From Gilliamella sp. Lep-s35 (GTDB lineage: Bacteria; Pseudomonadota; Gammaproteobacteria; Enterobacterales; Orbaceae): a stretch of DNA of 58,978 nucleotides. Both the position numbers and the translations under genes were made by a program. The notes beneath the pieces are model-generated. The model worked only from the letters and a program-made list of their open reading frames with translations, did no database searches and was not told where the DNA came from. The stretch lies in NCBI RefSeq assembly GCF_009795845.1, contig NZ_WTEX01000015.1, positions 1 to 58,978 of the forward strand. The letters are read 5' to 3'. Positions 4,580-42,812 of the stretch are shown here, in pieces; position 1 is the stretch's first letter; each line of letters opens with the position of its first letter.

Positions 4580-5755
4580 TTATAGCACTTTAACAATTGA
4601 CTCGCAAAGTCTAGACATATTATCTAATGTCATACCTGCAACATTAATCCGTCCTGAGTTAACAATATAGATACCATAGTCGTTGCGTAATTTGAGTACT
4701 TGTTCTTCATTTAGCCCGCTAAATGAAAACATACCATTTTGTTTAACAATAAAGCTAAAATCTTGACTAGCCCCTTTATCTTGTAAGGTTTTAACAAATA
4801 GTTGGCGCATACGGTGAATGCGTTGGCGCATATTGGTTAACTCATTAATCCATTCTTCTTTTAGTTCTTCATTATTTAAAATGTGAGAAACGATTTTAGC
4901 ACCATGGGCAGGAGGATTAGAATAGTTAGCCCGAATGATCGTTTTTACTTGGCTAAAGGCTCGATCGGCAATTTCACTATTGGCTGCAATTAAAGTAAAT
5001 GCGCCAACACGTTCGTTATAAAGACCAAAGTTTTTGGAATAGGAACTGGCAATGAGTAATTCAGGTTGATTTTGAGCAAAGAGTCTTAAGCCGTAGACGT
5101 CTTCTTCTATACCTTGTCCAAAACCTTGATAAGCAAGGTCAAATAATGGTAGCCAACCATTTTTTAAGGCTAGATCCGAGATAGCTTGCCACTGCTCAGG
5201 TGTTAGATCAATACCTGTTGGGTTGTGACAGCAACCATGAAAAAGTACCGCCTCACCTACTGCAATTTTACTTAAATCTTGCATCAGTCCATCAAAGTCT
5301 AAGCTATGGGTTTGTGCATCATAATAACGGTATTCTCGCACTTCAAGACCGGCAGTTTGGAAGACACTTCGATGATTTGGCCATGAAGGATTACTGACCC
5401 AAATACGTTTTGCTTTGGTTCGGCGAGCCAAAAAATCGGCAGTGATTCGTAAAGCACCCGTGCCTCCTGGTGCTTGTGCCGTTCTGGCTCGTTCATTTTC
5501 GTTACCAAATAATAAGATTTGTGTGGCGATATTAAATTCTTTGATTCCGTCAATGGATAAATAACTTTTTGTGGTTTCGTTATTTAATAAAAATTGTTCA
5601 GCTTTTTTTACGCTTTCTAAAATAGGTGTTTTGGTCGTTTCATCTTTATACACGCCCACACTAAGATTGATTTTATTGGTACGGTCGTCTTTGTTGTAAA
5701 GATCGGCTAGTCCTAAAATGGGATCGGCTAGAGCTGCTGTTAAATATTCAAACAT
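4580..5755 (-). CDS. aspC: Aspartate aminotransferase
   Basis: This 391-residue class I aminotransferase (E. coli AspC has 396) interconverts aspartate and 2-oxoglutarate with oxaloacetate and glutamate, using PLP in the cytoplasm. It starts [20 protein letters not shown], like AspC/TyrB. Visible motifs are [13 protein letters not shown] (cofactor and substrate loop), [10 protein letters not shown], the PLP-lysine segment [15 protein letters not shown], and the C-terminal substrate arginine in SGRINVAGM. It is a single gene with its own terminator. TyrB is the alternative, but overall similarity favours AspC. Confidence 0.93.
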
Positions 5756-5886
5756 AATTCACCTATCTGATCTAATGGCTTTTAGCTCATTATATACACA
5801 TTATTTTGTAAGTTACAATTTTGATAATAACAATCTATTAAAAAGTTATTTAAATAAATTAATCTTATTTTTTAGCATGCTATTTT

Positions 5887-6420
5887 TTAATAATTTGCAA
5901 CAAGTTGCTGTAAAAATTGTGGTAAATCATCTGCTAATACTGTTAACTCTCCAGTAATAAGATCTTCTTTTACCACTTCACCTGTTAGGTTATTTAAGCT
6001 AATGATTTCGGTACTTTCATCAGTCGAGGCAATAAATACCGTTGGTGTACGCCGTAACTTTTTTTGTTGTGATAGATGAGCAATTAAATTTTGTTCTAAA
6101 TTTGAAAAATCATCATCATTCCAAGGCTGAATTAAAACTAAATTGATGTTGTTAAACTTAGCTGTCATATTGCCTGCATATTGTGTGCCATAAAAAACAT
6201 GGCTACTTGGGTGTAGCGTAATGCCTACAAGTTGCTCAACGATAGTTAAGGATCTTGGTGGTGTTAATAAAAAAGGTTGCCAATATACAGTTAATTGTTC
6301 CGTTTTTAGAATGCAAGATGAAGGTATGGCGTGCAGTTCTTCACTTTGTGGTGCATCGTCAAATTGGTCGACCCAACGCGAAGTAAAATCAATTAGGGCA
6401 GTTTTATCTCGGATATCCAT
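5887..6420 (-). CDS. syd: SecY-interacting protein Syd
   Basis: The 177-residue soluble protein matches Syd along its length: the SEELHAIPSSCILKT region, VYWQPFLL, VFYGTQYAGNMTAKF, LIQPWNDDDFSNLEQNLIAH, and the closing NLTGEVVKEDL. Syd binds the cytoplasmic face of SecY through a concave acidic surface and may act as a proofreader of SecYEG complexes. It stands alone between aspC and the long rne leader and shares its strand with aspC. Confidence 0.9.
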   Translation of the reverse strand: MDIRDKTALIDFTSRWVDQFDDAPQSEELHAIPSSCILKTEQLTVYWQPFLLTPPRSLTIVEQLVGITLHPSSHVFYGTQYAGNMTAKFNNINLVLIQPWNDDDFSNLEQNLIAHLSQQKKLRRTPTVFIASTDESTEIISLNNLTGEVVKEDLITGELTVLADDLPQFLQQLVANY

Positions 6421-32949: not shown

Positions 32950-33254
32950 ATTAATTAACAAAAATTAAATGCAATACAGACAATAAATAGTTATTTATTG
33001 TTAATTGAAAAGGCAAAATTTTATTCACAATTGTTAATCATAGGTATGAAATCTAATGAAAAGATATTTTCTAGTTAGCTTATTGTTAATGTTCAGTTGG
33101 TTCAGTTATGGGATGACTGACATCCCCCAATTTTCTCATCGTGTCATTGACACGACCAAAACCTTAACTGAATCACAAAAAAACGCATTAGAAGCAAGCT
33201 TAATTGACTTTGAAAAACCAAGATCAGATGGAGCACAAATAGCTGTTTTAATGA
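32905..33254 (+). repeat. Direct repeat, unit 1 (TPM tail, spacer, TPM start)
   Basis: The last codons of copy 1, the 106-base spacer (32950-33055) and about the first 200 bases of copy 2 recur almost unchanged 976 bases downstream. The two spacers look identical. Only a few substitutions separate the coding parts, so the duplication is recent or kept uniform by gene conversion. Confidence 0.85.
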
Positions 33255-33925
33255 TAGCAAAACTTGACAACGAAACCGTGGAACACTACGCAAATAGAGT
33301 GTTTAACCAATGGGGAATTGGAAAAAAAGGGCAGGATAATGGCATCTTATTATTGATTGTAAAAGACGATAAGCGGATGCGCATTGAGGTGGGGTATGGG
33401 CTTGAAGGCATTGTTACCGATTTAGTGGCGAGTCGTATTATTCGCGAACAATTAGCCCCACAATTTAAGCAAGGAAACTTTAACAATGGGATTAGTAACG
33501 CAATAGCTGCTTTAGCTGTCGCATTGACGACATCTCACCAAACAACCGAATCATTGCAATCGTTATCCCAAACGCAAATCTATAATAAGCAACAAGCCGA
33601 TCTTGGGCAAATACCAACTAATCAAGATTTTTTTCCATATTTTTTTCTATTGATCATACTATCACCGCTTATTAGCATCGCTATTTCATGGTTTACCGCT
33701 AAACGTTTTGCTAAACGGGTTTTGGGTTCTGATTCGTTAAATAGTGTTTTTAGCGTACTTATTTATTATTTACTTACTAAAGATAGACGTTTTAAAACGA
33801 ATAAATCTAGCCGATGGAATGACGATTATAATGACCGAGATCGTTCATCCAATAATAATTCAGACCGTTTTCGTGGTGGTGGTGGGGGCCGCAGTGGCGG
33901 CGGTGGCGCTTCCGGCAGTTGGTAA
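33056..33925 (+). CDS. TPM-domain (YgcG-like) membrane protein, copy 2
   Basis: The 289-residue paralogue shares nearly all of its first 139 residues with copy 1 and then diverges completely. Its middle is a Gln/Thr-rich periplasmic segment (HQTTESLQSLSQTQIYNKQ) and a span (FFPYFFLLIILSPLISIAIS), followed by a charged RWNDDYNDRDRSSNNNSDRF stretch before the same Gly-rich RSGGGGASGSW tail. Signal peptide and TPM domain are as in copy 1. The first ATG is preceded by a weak AGGT site within the repeated spacer. Confidence 0.85.
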   Translation: MKRYFLVSLLLMFSWFSYGMTDIPQFSHRVIDTTKTLTESQKNALEASLIDFEKPRSDGAQIAVLMIAKLDNETVEHYANRVFNQWGIGKKGQDNGILLLIVKDDKRMRIEVGYGLEGIVTDLVASRIIREQLAPQFKQGNFNNGISNAIAALAVALTTSHQTTESLQSLSQTQIYNKQQADLGQIPTNQDFFPYFFLLIILSPLISIAISWFTAKRFAKRVLGSDSLNSVFSVLIYYLLTKDRRFKTNKSSRWNDDYNDRDRSSNNNSDRFRGGGGGRSGGGGASGSW

Positions 33926-34230
33926 ATTAATTAACAAAAATTAAATGCAATACAGACAATAAATAGTTATTTATTGTTAATTGAAAAGGCAAAATTTTAT
34001 TCACAATTGTTAATCATAGGTATGAAATCTAATGAAAAGATGTTTTCTAGTTAGCTTATTGTTAATGTTCAGTTGGTTCAGTTATGGGCTGACTGACATC
34101 CCCCAATTTTCCCATCGAGTCATTGACACGACCAAAACCTTAACTGAATCACAAAAAAACGCATTAGAAGCAAGCTTAATTGACTTTGAAAAACCAAGAT
34201 CAGATGGAGCACAAATAGCTGTTTTAATGC
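33881..34230 (+). repeat. Direct repeat, unit 2 (TPM tail, spacer, TPM start)
   Basis: This is the second occurrence of the unit at 32905-33254: the end of copy 2, the same 106-base spacer (33926-34031) and the first 200 bases of copy 3. Recombination between the units would delete or amplify one whole TPM gene in frame with its signals. Confidence 0.85.
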
Positions 34231-34943
34231 TCTCTAAACTTGATAATGAAACCGTAGAGCAATACGCAGATAGAGTCTTTATTCAATGGAAAATCGGTCG
34301 AAAAGGACAAGACAATGGTATTTTATTACTTATTGTTAAAGATGACAAACGCATGCGCATTGAAGTGGGCTATGGGCTTGAAGGAACTATTACCGACCTA
34401 GTTGCCAGTAAAATTATTCGTGAACAATTGGCACCACAGTTTCAGCAAAATAACTATTATCAAGGTATTGATAATGCCTTATCTGTGCTGAAACAAAAAA
34501 TCGATAATCCTGCCCTGAAATGTGAAGATAATGAACAAGGCCTTAACCTTAACCTGTTATTTTCAGAAGATTTTACTTCTATGTTGAGTAAGTATGCGCT
34601 GGTGTCATTTCTTATTTGTTTTGTACTTGCCAAATTATTGTATCGTAAAGATAAAAGCAAACAATGTTTACGTACAGGTTTATTTAACGCATTATCTGTT
34701 ACTGGATTCACCCTTTGGCATGTGCAATATATATTTGAGATAGCATTTTTGATGTATGTTATAATGTTTGTCGTATTTACTTTGAGTACCATGGTTAGCG
34801 GCTTTTTAACTCCCGGAGCTGGCGGAAGAGGAGGAAATAGTCGCGGAGGAAGTGGCGGTTTTGGTGGTTCTAGCAGTGGCGGCGGCTTTAGCGGCGGCGG
34901 TGGAGGCCGCAGTGGTGGCGGTGGTGCCTCAGGTAGCTGGTAA
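34032..34943 (+). CDS. TPM-domain (YgcG-like) membrane protein, copy 3
   Basis: The 303-residue paralogue is almost identical to copy 2 for the first 66 codons. Beyond that the DNA drifts (ctctctaaacttgataatg against atagcaaaacttgacaacg) while the protein stays similar to residue 145. The middle resembles copy 1 (QNNYYQGIDNALSVLK) and holds spans SFLICFVLAKLLY and AFLMYVIMFVVFTLSTMV. The tail is an extended Gly/Ser run ending GGGGASGSW. Last gene of the lemA-TPM run. Confidence 0.85.
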   Translation: MKRCFLVSLLLMFSWFSYGLTDIPQFSHRVIDTTKTLTESQKNALEASLIDFEKPRSDGAQIAVLMLSKLDNETVEQYADRVFIQWKIGRKGQDNGILLLIVKDDKRMRIEVGYGLEGTITDLVASKIIREQLAPQFQQNNYYQGIDNALSVLKQKIDNPALKCEDNEQGLNLNLLFSEDFTSMLSKYALVSFLICFVLAKLLYRKDKSKQCLRTGLFNALSVTGFTLWHVQYIFEIAFLMYVIMFVVFTLSTMVSGFLTPGAGGRGGNSRGGSGGFGGSSSGGGFSGGGGGRSGGGGASGSW

Positions 34944-35328
34944 TATAATTAATCCCACCAAAAACATTAAATATCAATGGTTAAAAATCAGTCAGAAAGA
35001 GCATTGGTTTTATTGAATTTTTTTTGATTGATTTTTAGGCGTTTTAATAGAAGTGTAAATGGATTTTTCTTGTCTATCTTAGATTGAACGTTTTTAATGG
35101 AAAAATAAATTTAACTTATTTTATGATCTAACTCACAAAATTGAACATAAATTCAATTTGTAAATTATCAATTTAAGAATAATAACATCTGACTATTACT
35201 GTATTTAGCTCATCTTATAACAAATTTCCTGTTACTGCAGGAAAAAGTCTCTATCCACATTAAGTTTTATTTGCATTAGGCTTAAATCATCTAATCCCCC
35301 TTAGCAAAATAAGAGATCTGTATTAGTT
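34944..35328. other. 385 bp regulatory region before the EF_0829-type cluster
   Basis: The stretch has no gene. It holds a CRP-like site (35122-35137), an overlapping-edge dyad AAATTGAA/TTCAATTT (35138-35145 and 35152-35159) and a second dyad TTTCCTG/CAGGAAA (35225-35231 and 35238-35244). The dyads are plausible operators for the PRD-type activator encoded at the end of the cluster. No clear -35/-10 pair and no -24/-12 sigma-54 element is obvious. Confidence 0.5.
35122..35137 (+). promoter_or_regulatory. CRP-like binding site
   Basis: TATGA-N6-TCACA matches the CRP half-site pattern TGTGA-N6-TCACA at nine of ten positions. It is about 190 bases before the first gene of the catabolic cluster and suggests carbon-catabolite control. 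Confidence 0.5.
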
Positions 35329-35658
35329 ATGACCGAAATACAATTTTGTATGATCGAAGATAGCCTTGATCCTGAACGTGTTACCGAACAAACCATTGAC
35401 ATTATTAATGGTTGGTTAGTTCAGCACCAAATTACCCAAAATGATATGCAAAAAGCAATGTTACTATCACATGTAAAAGCGATGGTAACACGTGCTAAAA
35501 CCTTAGAAAAATTACCAGAAGTTGATCCAACTTTATTTGAGGAGCTGTCAGAAGAGTCCTTAGATCTAGCACGGAAAACAGTAAGCTTATTTAATAGTTT
35601 ACCAATGGAAGAAGCTTATTTATTAGCGGTACATTATGAAGTGGCTAAAGCAAATTAA
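35329..35658 (+). CDS. Small PRD-like protein, EF_0829/AHA_3910-type
   Basis: The 109-residue soluble, helical protein begins MTEIQFCMIEDSLDPERVTE. It has conserved histidines at LLSHVKAM and at the C-terminal LLAVHYEVAK, the pattern of a PTS regulation domain (PRD), where HPr or EII components phosphorylate His. It has no DNA-binding part. I match it to the small PRD member that opens the Enterococcus/Aeromonas cluster EF_0829-EF_0839. It may act as a phosphorylation-dependent modulator, but the actual role is unknown. It lies 47 bases before the SFCGS gene. Confidence 0.75.
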   Translation: MTEIQFCMIEDSLDPERVTEQTIDIINGWLVQHQITQNDMQKAMLLSHVKAMVTRAKTLEKLPEVDPTLFEELSEESLDLARKTVSLFNSLPMEEAYLLAVHYEVAKAN

Positions 35659-35705
35659 AACAAATACGAGATATTCTAAAATGAAAATTAAATAGGAGAA
35701 ATATT

Positions 35706-36071
35706 ATGACTGAAGTAGTTATTGTCATTGGCGATAGAATGGGAAAAGGGCAGAAAATCGCAGATGGCATTAATTCTGTGGAAGGATGCCGGGCAATTGT
35801 TATTCCTGGTATGGCAGCGGATATGAAATTGGGCGATGTGATGAATAAAGAAAATGCCGATTTAGGGCTTTCTTTTTGTGGTAGTGGAGGCGCTGGTGCG
35901 ATTACAGCACAAAATAAATATGGTTATCCACAACGTCATGGTATGCGTTCTATCGAAGAAGGTGAAACGGCAATTAATGAGGGATGTAAAGTGCTAGGTT
36001 TTGGTTTTATGGATACACAAGAGCTTGGGGAACGTGTTGCCAAAGCGTTTTTGAGAAAATATCCACGTTGA
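35706..36071 (+). CDS. Glycine-rich SFCGS-family protein (EF_0830-type)
   Basis: The 121-residue protein has the diagnostic motif LSFCGSGGAGAIT (about residues 57-69) and an N-terminal strand/loop TEVVIVIGDRMGKGQKIADG. No signal peptide or span is seen, so it is cytoplasmic. Family function is not established. The exposed Cys in a small-residue loop after a beta strand is reminiscent of PTS EIIB phosphocysteine sites, but that is my inference. It is followed by DUF4312, DUF4311 and DUF4310 genes in the fixed order of this cluster. Confidence 0.85.
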   Translation: MTEVVIVIGDRMGKGQKIADGINSVEGCRAIVIPGMAADMKLGDVMNKENADLGLSFCGSGGAGAITAQNKYGYPQRHGMRSIEEGETAINEGCKVLGFGFMDTQELGERVAKAFLRKYPR

Positions 36072-36088
36072 TAAGATGGAAGATCAGA

Positions 36089-36385
36089 ATGAAAAAAAAT
36101 CAACAGATGGTCGTAAAAGTAAAAGGTCATGGTGATTCTAAGCAAAGAGCATTTGCTACAGCGTTAAGCCAGGTTCAAAAAGAGGTGCTTAAAAATACAC
36201 ATAATATTATGTTACGTATTGAACCGATTGATATTCAGGTTGTATCAGCGATAGCAAAGATAACCACTGAACGGTTTTTGTTTGTTTTCTTACCAAGGAA
36301 AAAAACACTTTATGAAGTTACGCTCGACGTATCTGTTGATATCAGTTTTATTGATCTAAATGAAATTGAATTTAGCGCTAAATAA
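36089..36385 (+). CDS. DUF4312-family protein (EF_0831-type)
   Basis: The 98-residue soluble protein starts MKKNQQMVVKVKGHGDSKQ. It has alternating strands and helices, ending in a hydrophobic and polar sheet (TLYEVTLDVSVDISFIDLNE). I chose the ATG at 36089, preceded by GGAAGA, over the TTG at 36068 inside the previous gene's end. The family is known only by its place in these clusters. It may be a soluble partner of the membrane pair that follows. Confidence 0.8.
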   Translation: MKKNQQMVVKVKGHGDSKQRAFATALSQVQKEVLKNTHNIMLRIEPIDIQVVSAIAKITTERFLFVFLPRKKTLYEVTLDVSVDISFIDLNEIEFSAK

Positions 36386-36405
36386 CATAACGGAAAAGGA
36401 AAGTT

Positions 36406-37158
36406 ATGGAAATTTTAATTATTGCATTGAAGTCTATTGTTATTGGTGGGCTTTGTGGTTTTGGAGTCGGTGTTGGTGCTGCTCGCATGTTTCATGCACC
36501 AACTTATCAAGGGATGGGGGCATTTCGCACTTTAGGTGAACTTAATTCTTGTGAAGGGGATCCTGCTGCGCATTTTTCTTTTGGCCTTGGATTTTTCTTT
36601 AATGCTTGGGCGTCATCGGTTGCGGCTGGATCTTTTACTCAAGATGTTGATCATCGCATTATTCCAAACTGGGGAGCAGCTTTGTTGATGGTAAAAAACC
36701 GTAATATTATCGAAACATTACATGACCCGAAAAAAATGGCATTTGTGTGCACAATTATTGGCGCGATTGTTGTGCTATTTTTGAACACCACAACTTCGGC
36801 AATCCCTGATTCGTTGAAAATTACAGCAACTAAAGTACTCGTACCAGCTGCTAATTTGCTTGTAGCAACTGTCATGCCTGTAATTTTTTGGTTAGCAGCG
36901 TTAGACGCAGGGCGAAGAAGTGGTTTTTGGGGAACACTATTTGGTGGGCTTGCACAGTTAATTATGGGCAATGCTGTACCTGGACTTGTATTAGGTATTT
37001 TGATAGGCAAAGGTGTGGATGATAGTGGTTGGAATCGTGTGATGAAGATTATGTTAGTTGCCATCATTATCCTATTTGTTATGAGTGGTTATTTCCGTGG
37101 CTTTGATATGAAGATGATTAACTCTTTTAGAGATGGTCTATCTTATTGGTTTAAATAG
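36406..37158 (+). CDS. DUF4311 membrane protein (EF_0832-type)
   Basis: This 250-residue integral membrane protein has about six spans. It contains the Gly-rich start GGLCGFGVGVGAARMFHAPTY, the loop AFRTLGELNSCEGDPAAHFS, and GNAVPGLVLGILIGKGVDD. Small-residue helix packing, an amphipathic HFSFGLGFFFNAWASS and conserved charged loops (DVDHRIIPNW) suggest a solute channel or carrier. With DUF4310 it is the likely membrane part of an uncharacterised transporter. It lies 15 bases before the DUF4310 gene. Confidence 0.85.
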   Translation: MEILIIALKSIVIGGLCGFGVGVGAARMFHAPTYQGMGAFRTLGELNSCEGDPAAHFSFGLGFFFNAWASSVAAGSFTQDVDHRIIPNWGAALLMVKNRNIIETLHDPKKMAFVCTIIGAIVVLFLNTTTSAIPDSLKITATKVLVPAANLLVATVMPVIFWLAALDAGRRSGFWGTLFGGLAQLIMGNAVPGLVLGILIGKGVDDSGWNRVMKIMLVAIIILFVMSGYFRGFDMKMINSFRDGLSYWFK

Positions 37159-37173
37159 TATAGGGAAAAAGTT

Positions 37174-37827
37174 ATGAATACAGGAACAACGATTAATAAA
37201 AGTTTTTGGTATGCCGATTGGTCATTCCCTATTATTTGTGGATTATTGTCTGCTGGGATTTTTGCAGGAACGCATACTTTTTATGTTTATGGTATTGGTG
37301 CATTTAATGAAATCGCTTTTGTCGCCATGCTTAAATCAGGAATGACAACTGGTGATTATGGTGCAGTGGCCGCTTTTGGTGCTAGCTTTTTGTTTGCACG
37401 TGTCATTGAAGGGTCGTTAGTTGGGATATTAGATATTGGTGGCGCCTTACAAACTGGTATTGGTTTAGGTGTTCCTGCACTGCTTTTAGCGGGAGGTTAC
37501 ACGTTACCTGTCGAAAACTTTGTTGCTGCATTGGCAACAGGTCTTGTTTTAGGGGGATTGATTGGGCTTATTATTATTCTTATTCGTAAATTTACGCTAA
37601 ATAGTGGCGGCGGATCAACATTTGGTGCTGATGTTATGATGGGAGCCGGTAATGCATCAGGAAGATTTTTAGGTCCAATGATTATTTTATCGGCGATGGT
37701 TGCTTCTATTCCAATTGGTATTGGTTCATTACTTGGTGCGCTCATCTTTTATGTATGGAAAAAACCGATCACTGGTGGTGCTATTTTAGGCGCTATGATT
37801 TTTGGTGGAATCTTCCCAATTGTGTAA
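37174..37827 (+). CDS. DUF4310 membrane protein (EF_0833-type)
   Basis: The 217-residue membrane protein has about six spans with Gly/Ala-rich helices (FGASFLFARVIEGSLVGILD, LGVPALLLAGGY). Its polar loop LNSGGGSTFGADVMMGAGNA is conserved in this family. It is the constant partner of DUF4311. Together they replace the mannose-type EIIC/EIID that Salmonella uses beside its dgaE and dgaF genes. The last gene of the predicted transport part; 50 bases separate it from the amidohydrolase. Confidence 0.85.
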   Translation: MNTGTTINKSFWYADWSFPIICGLLSAGIFAGTHTFYVYGIGAFNEIAFVAMLKSGMTTGDYGAVAAFGASFLFARVIEGSLVGILDIGGALQTGIGLGVPALLLAGGYTLPVENFVAALATGLVLGGLIGLIIILIRKFTLNSGGGSTFGADVMMGAGNASGRFLGPMIILSAMVASIPIGIGSLLGALIFYVWKKPITGGAILGAMIFGGIFPIV

Positions 37828-37877
37828 TTTTAATACTCCTTTGTTATTGCCTAGATTAAGTGGGTTTGGATTTAATT

Positions 37878-39032
37878 ATGTATGATTTAGTGATAAAAAA
37901 AGCCAAATTAATTGACGAATCGATCGTTGATATTGCCGTTCATTTAGGCAAGATTGTTGAGATTAGTAACAACATTACAGAACAATCACAACATGTTTTA
38001 GATCTGCAGGCTAAATATTACGTTAGTGCTGGGTGGATTGATTCTCATACCCATTGTTTTGCTCATTCACCTATTTATTACGATGAACCTGATTTTATCG
38101 GCGTTAAGTCTGGTGTTACTTCAGTTGTTGATGCCGGTAGTGTGGGAGCGCTTGATGTTGATGAATTTTATCAATTAGCGCAACAAGCTCATACTCACGT
38201 TTATTCTTTTTTAAATATTTCGAAAATAGGGCTAATACGACAAAGTGAACTTGCCGATATGAGTGATATTGATGTGTCTTTGTTTGATTCAATGCTGGAC
38301 AAATATTCTAATTTTATTATTGGAATTAAAGTCAGAATGAGTCGTAGTGTTGTTGGTGAAAATGGCATATTACCATTGATTAAAGCTAAAGATATGCAAA
38401 AGAAAAGTGGGTTGCCATTAATGATTCATATTGGAAATAATCCTCCAGAACTTGATGATATTGCGGATTTATTAACAAAAGGAGATATTATTACTCACTG
38501 TTTTAATGGTAAGCCGAATCAAATTTTTGATAAACAAAATAATCTTCGCGATTCAATTAAACGAGCTATTAGGCGCGGTGTAATTTTAGATATTGGTCAT
38601 GGTGGTGAAAGTTTTAGTTTTGCTGTCGCTGATAGGGCTAAATGCCTTGATATTTACCCAAATACAATTAGTTCTGATATCTATTTTAAGAATCGTATTC
38701 AAGGACCAGTATTTAGTTTAGCTAATGTTATGACTAAGTTTATTTGTTTAGGCTATAGCAGGAAAAGAATTATTGATAGTGTTACAAAAAATGCGGCACA
38801 AATTTTGCGTCTTAAAAATAAAGGAGAATTATCCATAGGTTATGATGCTGATCTCACTATTTTTGATATCAAACAAGAAATAGTTTCGTTATCAGATTCA
38901 GAAGGTGAAGTTCGTCAAAGTCATGAACAGTTTGTTCCTTTGGCATGTGTTGTAACTGCAAGTACAGAACATACTGTGCGTATTGAAATAACGGAAGAAG
39001 GTAGTAAAAATGGGCTTAGAATCTCAAACTGA
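37878..39032 (+). CDS. Amidohydrolase/deacetylase-family metallohydrolase (EF_0837-type)
   Basis: This 384-residue enzyme of the dihydroorotase/amidohydrolase superfamily has the first metal motif WIDSHTHCF, then GVTSVVDAGSVG, IHIGNNPPE and ITHCFNGKPN (metal His residues), and DIGHGGESF with SSDIYF carrying the catalytic Asp. The ATG at 37878 (MYDLVIKKAKLI) fits the family start; a GTG at 37860 would add six residues. It should remove an N-acyl group from the substrate before deamination. Its end overlaps the dgaE-like gene by 23 bases. Confidence 0.85.
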   Translation: MYDLVIKKAKLIDESIVDIAVHLGKIVEISNNITEQSQHVLDLQAKYYVSAGWIDSHTHCFAHSPIYYDEPDFIGVKSGVTSVVDAGSVGALDVDEFYQLAQQAHTHVYSFLNISKIGLIRQSELADMSDIDVSLFDSMLDKYSNFIIGIKVRMSRSVVGENGILPLIKAKDMQKKSGLPLMIHIGNNPPELDDIADLLTKGDIITHCFNGKPNQIFDKQNNLRDSIKRAIRRGVILDIGHGGESFSFAVADRAKCLDIYPNTISSDIYFKNRIQGPVFSLANVMTKFICLGYSRKRIIDSVTKNAAQILRLKNKGELSIGYDADLTIFDIKQEIVSLSDSEGEVRQSHEQFVPLACVVTASTEHTVRIEITEEGSKNGLRISN

Positions 39033-40149
39033 AAAAGATATATATAGTAAATATCACTTAAAAAAAGTGATTAATGCTTCAGGTCGTATGACTATTTTAG
39101 GTGTATCAACACCAAGACCGGAAGTGGCACAGACTGTAGTTCATGGTTTAAATGAGTATTTTGAAATTAAAGACTTAGTCGATAAAACGGGACAATATAT
39201 CGCTAAATTACTCAATGTGGAAAATGCGGTTGTTGTATCATGTGCTTCAGCGGGCATTGCTCAAGCCATTGCAGGAATAATTGTTAAGGATGACTATGAT
39301 CTGCTATTTAATTTACATTCGTCAGATAAATATGTTCCTCGAGAAATTATTATCCCTAAAGGTCATAACGTTAATTTTGGTGCTCCGATTAGTACGATGG
39401 TTTCATTAGGCGGTGGTATTGTGGTTGAAGCTGGTTATGCTAATGAATGTAAACCAGAACATATCGAATCTTTAATTAATCCAGACACAGCGGCTATTTT
39501 ATATGTTAAGTCTCATCATTGTGTGCAAAAAAGTATGTTATCAATTGCGCAAGCTGTTTGTATTGCCCAAAAACACAAAATTCCATTAATTGTCGATGCT
39601 GCAGCTGAAGAAGATTTGCAAACATATTATCAACAAGGCGCCGATTTGGTTATTTATAGCGGGGCAAAAGCGATTGAAGGACCAACAAGCGGTTTAGTTA
39701 TTGGTCGTCAACAAGCAGTCGAATGGGTAAAACTCCAGTCTCAAGGTATTGGTCGACCAATGAAAGTTGGTAAAGAAGGTATTTTAGGGTTAACTAAAGC
39801 CATTGAACTTTATGTTACCAAACCAATGCATGAAACAGGACAACAAATGGTAACTAAAATGACACCATTTATTGAAAATTTAAATGTACTTGATGGAATA
39901 TCAGCCAAAGTCGTTTGGGATGGTGCTGGTCGTGATATTGCACGAACAGAAATAGCATTTGATGCTACCGTGATAGGTAAAACGGCAATTGAAATGATTG
40001 AGCTGATGAAACAAGGCGAAATAGCAGTGTACTTCAGAGAATATAAAGCCAATGAAGGTAAAGTTGATGCCGATGTTCGTAGTGTTACATCAGCACAACT
40101 CGATATTGTTTACTGCAAAATTAAAAATATTATTCAAGGAGCAAAATAA
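39010..40149 (+). CDS. DgaE-family PLP-dependent ammonia lyase
   Basis: The 379-residue fold-type I enzyme is of the SelA-related family. It has the glycine and cofactor segment NAVVVSCASAGIAQAIAG, the aspartate motif IPLIVDAAAEEDL and the Schiff-base lysine in VIYSGAKAIEGPTSG. Salmonella DgaE converts D-glucosaminate 6-phosphate to 2-keto-3-deoxygluconate 6-phosphate and ammonia, and I expect a similar reaction. It is not selenocysteine synthase. Its ATG lies within the end of the amidohydrolase gene, and its stop overlaps the dgaF-like ATG by one base. Confidence 0.85.
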   Translation: MGLESQTEKDIYSKYHLKKVINASGRMTILGVSTPRPEVAQTVVHGLNEYFEIKDLVDKTGQYIAKLLNVENAVVVSCASAGIAQAIAGIIVKDDYDLLFNLHSSDKYVPREIIIPKGHNVNFGAPISTMVSLGGGIVVEAGYANECKPEHIESLINPDTAAILYVKSHHCVQKSMLSIAQAVCIAQKHKIPLIVDAAAEEDLQTYYQQGADLVIYSGAKAIEGPTSGLVIGRQQAVEWVKLQSQGIGRPMKVGKEGILGLTKAIELYVTKPMHETGQQMVTKMTPFIENLNVLDGISAKVVWDGAGRDIARTEIAFDATVIGKTAIEMIELMKQGEIAVYFREYKANEGKVDADVRSVTSAQLDIVYCKIKNIIQGAK

Positions 40150-40889
40150 TGCAACTGACTCCCAATTATTATAATGATCGTGTTTGTTTAAATGTATTGG
40201 CTAATTCTATTGATAATGCTAAAGCTATTTATGAAGCGGCAAAAACACATGTTGTTGTCGGTGTTTTGTCTAAAAATTATCTAGATAATGCCTCAGCTAT
40301 TGCCGATATGAAAAAATATGCTTTAGCGATCGATAATGCAATTTCAGTTGGGCTTGGTGCAGGTGATCCGAATCAGTCGATAATGGTTTCTGAAATTTCT
40401 GCTGTACTTCAACCACAACATGTTAATCAAGTGTTTACTGGTGTGGCAACAAGTAGAGCCTTGTTAGGGCAAAACGAAACAGTCGTTAACGGATTAGTTT
40501 CACCAACAGGTAAAGTTGGTTTAGTTAATATTGCAACAGGACCGCTAAGCTCTAAATCTCTAGCCACGAGTGTACCGGTTGAAACGGCAATTGCTTTATT
40601 GAAAGACATGGGCGGAAGCTCAATAAAATATTTTCCTATGGGGGGCTTAAAGCATCAAGATGAATTTGAATATGTGGCTAAGTGTTGTGCAGAAAATGAT
40701 TTTTATCTAGAGCCTACTGGTGGTATCGATTTAGATAACTATGAGTCGATCTTAAAAATTGCTTTAGACTCGGGAGTGAAAAAGATCATTCCTCATATCT
40801 ATAGTTCTATCATTGATAAAGTGACTGGCGAAACTCGAATCAGTGATGTAAAACAGTTGCTATCAATTACAAAAAAATTAGTAGGATAA
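40149..40889 (+). CDS. DgaF-family KDPG aldolase
   Basis: The 246-residue TIM-barrel protein of the DgaF/EF_0839 family starts MQLTPNYYNDRVCLNVLANS. It has SVGLGAGDPNQS, IKYFPMGGLKHQDEF with the probable Schiff-base Lys region, and EPTGGIDLDNYESI. The family cleaves 2-keto-3-deoxy-6-phosphogluconate into pyruvate and glyceraldehyde 3-phosphate. It is coupled to the dgaE-like gene and is followed three bases later by the regulator. Confidence 0.85.
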   Translation: MQLTPNYYNDRVCLNVLANSIDNAKAIYEAAKTHVVVGVLSKNYLDNASAIADMKKYALAIDNAISVGLGAGDPNQSIMVSEISAVLQPQHVNQVFTGVATSRALLGQNETVVNGLVSPTGKVGLVNIATGPLSSKSLATSVPVETAIALLKDMGGSSIKYFPMGGLKHQDEFEYVAKCCAENDFYLEPTGGIDLDNYESILKIALDSGVKKIIPHIYSSIIDKVTGETRISDVKQLLSITKKLVG

Positions 40890-40892
40890 GAA

Positions 40893-42812
40893 ATGTTATC
40901 TAAAGTGCTTTTCTCTTATCAGCGATTAGTTTATCTATTTGATACGATAAAAAATGAGACACTACCTCAGCAAGAGTTAGCAAATCGTTTTTCTGTGTCT
41001 ACACGAACAATTCGAACTGATATTTCAGCACTTAATGATATTTTACGCACTTATGGTGCTCAAGTTGAATATACCAAAAATATCGGTTATCAGCTTGTGG
41101 TATCTGATCCTAATTGTTATGCGACATTACCAATTACGCAACCAATAGAGCAGGTTCCAAGAACAAGTAAAGAGCGAGTTTCTGCTTTATTGATTGCTTT
41201 TTTAACTCAATCAAACTCTGTTAAATTAGATGATATTGCTGGAGAATGGTTTTTAAGTCGTAGTACTTTACAAAATGATGTTATTGAGGTTAAGCAATAT
41301 TTAGATAAATATAATTTATCTATTGAAAATCGACCTTATTATGGGATGCGATTGGTGGGTGAAGAATCATCTATTCGAGCATGTTTAACTGATATTTTGT
41401 GGCGAGGCCATATGATCGAAGATACTATAACGGTAGATAGGCTTAGACAAACCATTTTGAATGATATCGATCTAAATTATCTTGAAAATATTTTACAAAA
41501 CCAATTTGAACGTTTTGAATTAAAGCTAAATGCCGAAGGGCAAGGGTATTTACTTTATAGTTGTGCGGTTTGTATAACTAGAATTACTCAAGGATATGAA
41601 CTCGTTGAATATCAAGTCGATAAAATAAATACGACTGTTATTAGTGCTGCTCGTGAAATTTCTGAAGGGTTTTCTTATTTTTTAGGCAGTGTACTTTCTG
41701 ATGCCGAATTTAACTATTTATGCGTGCAAATTGCTTCCCGAACAATTATCGATTCGCCTAATCAAGCAAAAAGTTTGGCACTGGTTAATCATATTTTGTC
41801 TTATATAAATGATTCTTATCACTATAATTTATGGGATGATAAAAAATTATACCAGGATATGCTAATCCATATTTCTTCAATGTTATCAAGGATTAAATAT
41901 CAAATTAGAACAACGAATCCTTTATTGCATCAAATTAAACAATATTATCCATTTGCGTACGATATTACGTTGTCTGCACTTAATAATACAGAAAAGTATA
42001 CTGATTTTAAAATGACAGAAGATGAAATTAGCTATTTAGCAATTCACATTGGCGTGGCATTAGAGCGCAATTATAACGCAGGTCATGAAAGGTATGCTCA
42101 AATTTTATTAGTTAGTGAACTGGGTAATTCTACGCTAAGAATGATTGAGTCAAAAATTAAGCGAGACTTTCCTCATATTCAGATTAACCGTGTTCTTTCT
42201 TATAGAGAATATGAGCAACTTTTAGATATTGAAGAAGATTTTGTTGTATCAACCGTTCGCTTAACAGAAAAAAATAAACAAATAGTTAAAATTGCACCAT
42301 TTCCTACACTTTATCAACTTGAACAGTTAGGAAGGCTTGCAATGGTCGATCGGACTATGCCATATATTATTGAGCGTTTTTTTGATGAAAAGTTTTTTCT
42401 GATTATCGATAAACCTGTTACACAAAAGGAGCTTTTAAAAAAAGTTTGCCAACGACTTGAGCAATCAGGTTATGTCGATGAAAATTTTTATCCTTCGGTG
42501 ATTGAGCGCGAAGCAATTGTTTCAACATTATTAGGTGAAAATATCGCTATTCCCCATACTGTAGGTCTATTAGCAAAAAAAACAGTGGTAACAACGATTT
42601 TGGTACCGCAAGGTATTTCATGGAATAAAAATGAAATTGCACATGTTATTTTTTTGTTAGCAATTAGCAAAGATGAATATGAAGATGCAATGAAAATCTA
42701 TAATTTATTTGTTAATTTCGTTAAAGAAAGAGCAACTAAACGTTTGTTAAATAGTAAAAATTTTGATAACTTTAGGGCCATTGTTAAAGATAGCTTTGGG
42801 CGACTATCATAA
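40893..42812 (+). CDS. PRD/EIIA-domain transcriptional activator (MtlR/BglG-type)
   Basis: The 639-residue regulator has an N-terminal helix-turn-helix (LPQQELANRFSVSTRTIRTD) and a second winged helix (DDIAGEWFLSRSTLQNDV). Two PRDs follow, the second with YLAIHIGVALERNY. An EIIB-like segment (LLVSELGNSTLRMIES) lacks the usual phosphorylatable Cys. A C-terminal EIIA (fructose/mannitol/Ntr type) has the active His in NIAIPHTVG. It binds DNA rather than RNA. PTS-mediated phosphorylation should set its activity. As last gene of the cluster it probably controls the dyad-bearing upstream region. Confidence 0.85.
   Translation: MLSKVLFSYQRLVYLFDTIKNETLPQQELANRFSVSTRTIRTDISALNDILRTYGAQVEYTKNIGYQLVVSDPNCYATLPITQPIEQVPRTSKERVSALLIAFLTQSNSVKLDDIAGEWFLSRSTLQNDVIEVKQYLDKYNLSIENRPYYGMRLVGEESSIRACLTDILWRGHMIEDTITVDRLRQTILNDIDLNYLENILQNQFERFELKLNAEGQGYLLYSCAVCITRITQGYELVEYQVDKINTTVISAAREISEGFSYFLGSVLSDAEFNYLCVQIASRTIIDSPNQAKSLALVNHILSYINDSYHYNLWDDKKLYQDMLIHISSMLSRIKYQIRTTNPLLHQIKQYYPFAYDITLSALNNTEKYTDFKMTEDEISYLAIHIGVALERNYNAGHERYAQILLVSELGNSTLRMIESKIKRDFPHIQINRVLSYREYEQLLDIEEDFVVSTVRLTEKNKQIVKIAPFPTLYQLEQLGRLAMVDRTMPYIIERFFDEKFFLIIDKPVTQKELLKKVCQRLEQSGYVDENFYPSVIEREAIVSTLLGENIAIPHTVGLLAKKTVVTTILVPQGISWNKNEIAHVIFLLAISKDEYEDAMKIYNLFVNFVKERATKRLLNSKNFDNFRAIVKDSFGRLS

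Follow-up and report, generated by a model that had tools for sequence, protein, structure and literature searches.

What is imported and degraded by a conserved cluster of genes that are known mainly as hypothetical families is the question raised by nine tightly spaced plus-strand genes at 35329-42812 of contig NZ_WTEX01000015.1 from Gilliamella sp. Lep-s35, a bee-gut bacterium; the whole stretch analysed, 58,978 nucleotides long, is hereafter called the window. The reading put forward here is that these genes may form an operon, linked to the phosphotransferase system (PTS), that takes up and degrades an N-acylated 2-amino-2-deoxy-aldonic acid, with N-acetyl-D-glucosaminate (GlcNAc1A) as the best candidate, a proposal about as apt to stand as to fall. 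It is drawn from the family assignments, the residues kept in the lyase and the amidohydrolase, a lactonase neighbour, an HPr-EI fusion beside one copy, and the link between ef0834 of Enterococcus faecalis and the regulator NagY. In outline, the acid would be imported by the DUF4311/DUF4310 membrane pair acting with SFCGS and DUF4312, both cytosolic, and would reach the lyase as its 6-phosphate, while the EF_0837-type amidohydrolase, by the chemistry of its family, would strip the acyl group. The DgaE-like pyridoxal phosphate (PLP) enzyme, homologous to a characterised one, would then act on the D-amino acid, eliminating ammonia and water and leaving 2-keto-3-deoxygluconate-6-phosphate, which DagF, to judge from its equivalog-level family match, would cleave to pyruvate and glyceraldehyde-3-phosphate. 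A PRD/EIIA activator and a stand-alone PRD protein would report the state of the PTS, and a CRP-like site would add catabolite control.

Families were called with NCBIfam models at their curated cut-offs and with a Pfam scan at E 0.1. These curated cut-offs are exceeded by eight of the nine genes, and genes 1-8, each over the cut-off of its own family model and adjacent in the conserved order, make up an EF_0829-type cluster (Table 1); the ninth, the activator, exceeds no model of its own and carries the Pfam domains HTH, Mga, PRD and EIIA_2. The gene content and order given in the original prediction are thereby borne out, as are the enzymes it named, all of which are matched by family models. 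Its single operon is likely as well, judging from the shared strand, the gaps of 47, 17, 20, 15, 50, -23, -1 and 3 bp between successive genes, and the finding of no terminator-like site between them, with four such sites in the region vs 4.6 expected by chance. Promoter and terminator scans gave no excess over shuffles, and a search of the window against Rfam returned nothing at gathering score. Alternative starts are listed for the DUF4312 frame (TTG at 36068) and the amidohydrolase frame (GTG at 37860).

Table 1. Features of the cluster; gene coordinates are those of open reading frames, and all positions refer to the whole window.
Feature	Position	Strand	Evidence
CRP-like site TATGATCTAACTCACA, upstream of gene 1	35122..35137	+	one mismatch to TGTGA-N6-TCACA
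EF_0829-type stand-alone PRD protein	35329..35658	+	TIGR03582, 113.7 bits vs cut-off 69.35
SFCGS protein (EF_0830)	35706..36071	+	TIGR03577 over cut-off; invariant Cys58; RpiB/LacAB fold predicted
DUF4312 (EF_0831), small soluble partner	36089..36385	+	TIGR03578, 117.2 bits
DUF4311 (EF_0832), membrane protein, proposed permease subunit	36406..37158	+	TIGR03580, 459.9 bits; hydrophobic segments
DUF4310 (EF_0833), membrane protein, proposed permease subunit	37174..37827	+	TIGR03579, 356.6 bits; hydrophobic segments
EF_0837-type amidohydrolase/deacetylase, proposed deacylase	37878..39032	+	TIGR03583, 520.3 bits vs 432.15
DgaE-like PLP ammonia lyase	39010..40149	+	TIGR01437, 560.7 bits
DagF/DgaF-type 2-dehydro-3-deoxy-phosphogluconate (KDPG) aldolase	40149..40889	+	TIGR03581, 397.2 bits; NF047796, 385.9 bits vs 300; Pfam KDGP_aldolase
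HTH-Mga-PRD-EIIA_2 activator with EIIA-site His555	40893..42812	+	Pfam

The unity of the cluster is evident from its conservation. DUF4311 has at least 541 coding relatives in named genomes, of which the best 80 were kept for locus counts, so that these counts lean to near relatives; residue counts are based on 81 rows, the 80 loci and the window. Within these 80, the loci closest in DUF4311 (96-97% identity) belong to Gilliamella. Genes 1-8 have identical order and strand wherever they are found in all 80 loci, an order conserved far beyond chance. The PRD protein, SFCGS, DUF4311, DUF4310, amidohydrolase and lyase are each present in every locus, DUF4312 in 78, DagF in 75 and the activator in 78, on the downstream side in 61 and on the upstream side in 17. 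One of the two loci without an activator (L045) is a shorter locus running to its contig end. The loci without DagF are all from Xenorhabdus, in which it is absent from 5 of 5 loci (L050, L065, L067, L073 and L075) while the remaining cluster is kept.

In a second survey, covering 149 genomes of one Enterobacterales family (that around G238), DUF4311 and the amidohydrolase are both over cut-off in an identical set of 68 genomes. SFCGS is found in 70 genomes, these 68 plus G342 and G358, where DUF4311 is present only in pieces; in G342, a low-completeness genome, SFCGS, DUF4311 and the amidohydrolase are all fragmented (contig 1, near 4580338-4583605). DUF4311 occurs in 25 of 80 genomes related to and including that of the window, 23 of which belong to the 44 Orbaceae genomes, and SFCGS in five of 249 genomes drawn evenly over the phylum, the window's own included. 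Given these counts of order and co-occurrence, together with the sparse presence across genomes, the cluster is passed on as one unit and is patchily distributed. On a 56-kb Bartonella plasmid (L108, 7630-17420), the whole cluster sits beside duplicated replication and partition genes, a setting that suggests horizontal transfer. A broken copy is seen in Aeromonas caviae (L110, 8945-13351), in which DUF4311 adjoins an incomplete DagF frame and, beyond it, the activator; DUF4310, amidohydrolase and lyase were not found in this copy at E 1e-5.

On grounds of homology, the catabolic half of the proposed system is moderately secure. In the amidohydrolase, whose nearest solved structures are 8wzy, 2ics and 2ogj, H57, H59, K151, H184, H207, H241 and D267 are invariant in 81 of 81 rows, and we take them, following the pattern of the amidohydrolase superfamily, to be metal ligands and catalytic residues. 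Equally constant in the lyase are K220, taken for the PLP lysine, H169, H170, R312, R343 and R357, all identical in 81 of 81 rows. The two histidines align with His162/163 of D-glucosaminate-6-phosphate ammonia-lyase (DGL), and the three arginines with its R301, R332 and R346; the study of DGL places His162/163 near the active site and describes the phosphate of D-glucosaminate-6-phosphate as manually docked near Arg301, Arg332 and Arg346 (Phillips et al., PMC9529869). DagF, for its part, is over the equivalog cut-off of the KDPG aldolase model NF047796. The simplest pathway would have an acyl-aminoaldonate feed the amidohydrolase, the lyase and DagF in that order, and the amino-sugar acid favoured as the best guess in the original prediction agrees with these family assignments.

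An aldonic-acid substrate is also what a lactonase neighbour would fit. In 11 of the 80 loci, DagF and the activator are separated by a lactonase-family gene (PF10282 confirmed on three of the 11), the sole recurrent inserted gene in the set, and such a gene is present in a Klebsiella record of the cluster too; its N-terminus resembles a signal peptide as judged by eye, and the enzyme would make the aldonate from its lactone. Seven Pantoea loci (L081, L083, L087, L088, L094, L097 and L102) have a KdgM-family porin gene on the upstream side of the cluster, placed in L081 at 5332-6072, about 2.7 kb from the cluster, and confirmed by Pfam for that locus only; possibly, it provides an outer-membrane route for acidic sugars.

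A link to amino sugars comes from E. faecalis, whose EF_0829-EF_0839 cluster contains all nine families, with ef0834 inside. It differs in having the activator upstream and in holding extra genes, namely those for a LacE-family PTS enzyme IIC (EIIC), a 99-aa hypothetical protein and a MupG-family protein, with a PfkB gene resembling 2-keto-3-deoxygluconate (KDG) kinases downstream. The EIIC is equated with ef0834 by annotation and by position, because it comes first in the set of exactly three genes that separate the EF_0833 homologue from the EF_0837 homologue. A PTS gene of cellobiose type, ef0834 is listed in the target set of NagY, the N-acetylglucosamine (GlcNAc) antiterminator, which comprises 26 direct targets, with their operons, from RNA-seq and RIP-seq (PMC12502629). 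One reading of the Enterococcus version is that it imports a disaccharide ending in an aldonate, which the MupG-like enzyme would cleave, the kinase then phosphorylating the released KDG. This would account for a kinase being present in E. faecalis and missing from the 80 Proteobacterial loci, whose examined flanks contain nothing related to KdgK or to the Enterococcus PfkB kinase at E 1e-5. In the E. faecalis record (L107, 18579-19321), the DagF frame is split or broken.

These neighbours bear on a different assignment of the enzymes, in which the amidohydrolase acts on a non-sugar N-acyl or O-acyl D-amino or D-hydroxy acid and the DgaE- and DgaF-like enzymes have come to use a substrate other than a sugar. 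Small alpha-acyl acids are the substrates of characterised amidohydrolase relatives (cog3964), reportedly described in a 2013 paper, and the DgaE-like protein, at 371.9 bits, is well short of the DGL equivalog cut-off of 600; both would suit such a drift. Yet the equivalog-level score of DagF, the lactonase neighbour and the NagY/GlcNAc link of the E. faecalis EIIC all point back to a sugar acid, and a non-sugar substrate is judged very unlikely.

That the PTS is involved is suggested by the regulators. H48 and H102 of the stand-alone PRD protein are invariant in all 81 rows, marking it as a probable PTS-phosphorylated regulator, and His555 at the EIIA site of the activator is present in every one of the 75 rows counted, those of the window and 74 loci (frames shorter than 500 aa, in 4 of the 78 loci with an activator, had been dropped). 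CRP-like sites with at most one mismatch are present in 20 of 81 upstream regions vs 1.45 expected from mononucleotide shuffles, including 10 of the 15 Gilliamella loci L027-L041, whose close relationship means that they are not independent. In the Bartonella plasmid copy, a gene for a 671-aa HPr-EI fusion (HPr residues 9-86) comes right after the activator, and this adjacency suggests that some component of the cluster needs PTS phosphoryl transfer.

If the transporter itself is PTS-driven, it would represent an unrecognised permease class. Among genes 1-8, no PTS EIIB/C/D Pfam family was detected at E 0.1. DUF4311 and DUF4310 have hydrophobic segments and are strikingly conserved, DUF4311 being 67% identical between Gilliamella and E. 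faecalis, and no hydrophobic segment was found in DUF4312. No homology between DUF4311 and DUF4310 was seen, with an hhalign probability of 1% from alignments that are both shallow. A distant E. coli relative of DUF4311 was considered and not found, 780 bases of a Kosakonia DUF4311 gene having no DNA match in the E. coli genomes searched, and this candidate was set aside. Weak hits of the same kind in two Enterobacterales genomes (L116 and L117) are taken as spurious; they cover one hydrophobic stretch at the start of a frame that we take to be DjlA-like. Solved structures were searched by sequence with SFCGS and by profile with both SFCGS and DUF4311, and no convincing match emerged.

The predicted structure of SFCGS has the RpiB/LacAB (ribose-5-phosphate isomerase B) fold and is placed in that group by fold, and its CGxG motif with Cys58 is kept in 81 of 81 rows. 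Two ideas grow out of this prediction. In the first, SFCGS, DUF4312, DUF4311 and DUF4310 would constitute a new PTS permease class, unrelated to the known enzyme II superfamilies, that delivers N-acylated aminoaldonates as 6-phosphates, with Cys58 as the phosphoryl carrier and SFCGS as an EIIB analogue recruited from an isomerase; we regard this as unlikely. In the second, SFCGS would be a true sugar-phosphate isomerase, the pathway would start from an aldose or ketose phosphate, and the entry substrate would not be an aldonic acid. The predicted fold and the cysteine motif would agree with that, but SFCGS has no PF02502 match at E 0.1 and reaches only 21.1 of 168.2 bits with TIGR02133; the second histidine and the C-terminal phosphate arginines that we presume to be typical of RpiB have no evident counterpart in the short SFCGS; and no recurrent oxidoreductase that could make the lyase's acid lies between the genes in the 80 loci. 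An isomerase function of this kind is judged highly improbable.

Several observations weigh against PTS-linked import of the acid as a 6-phosphate, and some of them favour a route for the same substrate class without phosphorylation, in which DUF4310/4311 would be a secondary transporter, the lyase would yield KDG, a genomic KdgK would act before DagF, and the PTS elements would be regulatory only. Such a route would parallel the ong pathway, by which a marine bacterium handles GlcNAc1A (PMC9537276). KdgK is encoded elsewhere in the genome, over cut-off, in 22 of 25 cluster-bearing relatives, the exceptions being G031 (59% complete), G078 (75%) and G033 (99%), the last with only KdgK fragments near that family's score, and it is found in 66 of 68 cluster-bearing genomes of the other Enterobacterales family (E 1e-40; 65 over cut-off), all except G403 and G446. 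Being near-ubiquitous, KdgK makes the unphosphorylated route possible nearly everywhere, and the gaps in its distribution do not suffice to show that the substrate is phosphorylated. Neither DUF4310 nor DUF4311 has a PTS family match in Pfam at E 0.1, and the predicted model of DUF4311 is poor (predicted local distance difference test score 60.4), with no fold match at E 0.001. The kinase-like PfkB gene adjoining the E. faecalis cluster would be superfluous for a phosphorylated substrate, and the E. faecalis activator has no recognised EIIA_2 domain. The placing of the phosphate in DGL comes from docking, and since 8t7j, a homologue, has the three arginines too, their presence may not point to phosphate in particular. 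The HPr-EI fusion might be there for the PRD regulators alone, and no experiment on the cluster was found in the literature searched.

The route through free KDG is nevertheless doubtful, although it has more in its favour than the other alternatives. The arginines proposed to form the phosphate site are invariant throughout, KdgK is common also in genomes without the cluster, G403 and G446 have the cluster and no KdgK match at E 1e-40, G033 has fragments only, and the examined flanks of the 80 loci contain no KdgK/PfkB relative. A further point against the PTS-linked reading concerns the source of GlcNAc1A. Lytic polysaccharide monooxygenases (LPMOs; PF03067, E 0.001) occur in none of the 44 Orbaceae genomes, the window's own included, and are not enriched with the cluster in the other Enterobacterales family, being present there in 14 of 70 genomes with it vs 13 of 79 without (Fisher p 0.67; genomes of all sizes). 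Chitin oxidation within the same cell is therefore not supported as the source, and co-occurrence with chitin-active LPMOs was rejected as support for GlcNAc1A.

No functional description of the cluster or of its families was found in the literature searched, which only mentions single E. faecalis members. In the passages concerned, ef_0839 or ef_2975 is among urine-induced promoters (PMC2912369), EF_0838 is among proteins found only in biofilm (PMC11135667), and ef0836 serves as a stable control transcript (PMC9120511); EF0838, the lyase, is annotated in the literature as a selenium transferase. The original prediction was right that these are mainly hypothetical families, that copies exist in Enterococcus and Aeromonas (the latter broken), and that substrate and transporter type are not established, DUF4310/4311 having no recognised family or fold. 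Its content, order, operon and substrate guess hold, and it had offered no mechanism; the claim of a new system fails at the level of the gene cluster, which is already catalogued by NCBI curated models named after EF_0829/AHA_3910 and their neighbours. The cluster is present in about half of the sampled genomes of one Enterobacterales family (70/149 by SFCGS), in 23/44 Orbaceae genomes and in at least one E. faecalis record. Knowing its substrate would put names to seven hypothetical-equivalog families together, set right the selenium transferase annotation of EF0838, and reveal a route for acylated amino-sugar acids that is distinct from ong.

The window also holds a local duplication immediately upstream of the cluster (33056-34943), a tandem pair of TPM-domain genes whose tails are rich in Gly/Ser and whose N-termini are almost identical to each other.

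Among the closest known systems is the Salmonella dga operon, which, reportedly from a 2013 paper, serves D-glucosaminate utilisation through the mannose-family PTS DgaABCD, the lyase DgaE and the aldolase DgaF. The two share a DgaE-type PLP lyase with its catalytic and proposed phosphate-site residues, a DgaF-type aldolase over the equivalog cut-off, and a link to the PTS. In contrast to dga, the cluster has an additional amidohydrolase and DUF4310/4311/4312/SFCGS, no mannose-family enzyme II, an activator of HTH-Mga-PRD-EIIA architecture, and a lyase below the DGL equivalog cut-off. The RpiB/LacAB proteins share with SFCGS the predicted fold and the CGxG cysteine motif, whereas SFCGS is shorter, remains under the family cut-offs, and has no evident equivalents of what are presumably the phosphate and ring-opening residues of RpiB. 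The ong pathway, the oxidative chitin pathway of Pseudoalteromonas, comprises OngIT, OngB, OngC and KdgK (PMC9537276, PMC12017989); there the unphosphorylated acid is handled by a symporter of the sodium-solute type, a deacetylase resembling D-aminoacylases and a D-amino acid deaminase (PMC9537276). The window proteins belong to other named families, a distinction drawn by family name, and come with PTS-linked regulators, and LPMOs were not detected in the 44 Orbaceae genomes searched. The order of events proposed here is nevertheless the same as in ong, with an N-acetylated aminoaldonate being deacylated and then deaminated, to KDG in the one case and probably to its 6-phosphate in the other.

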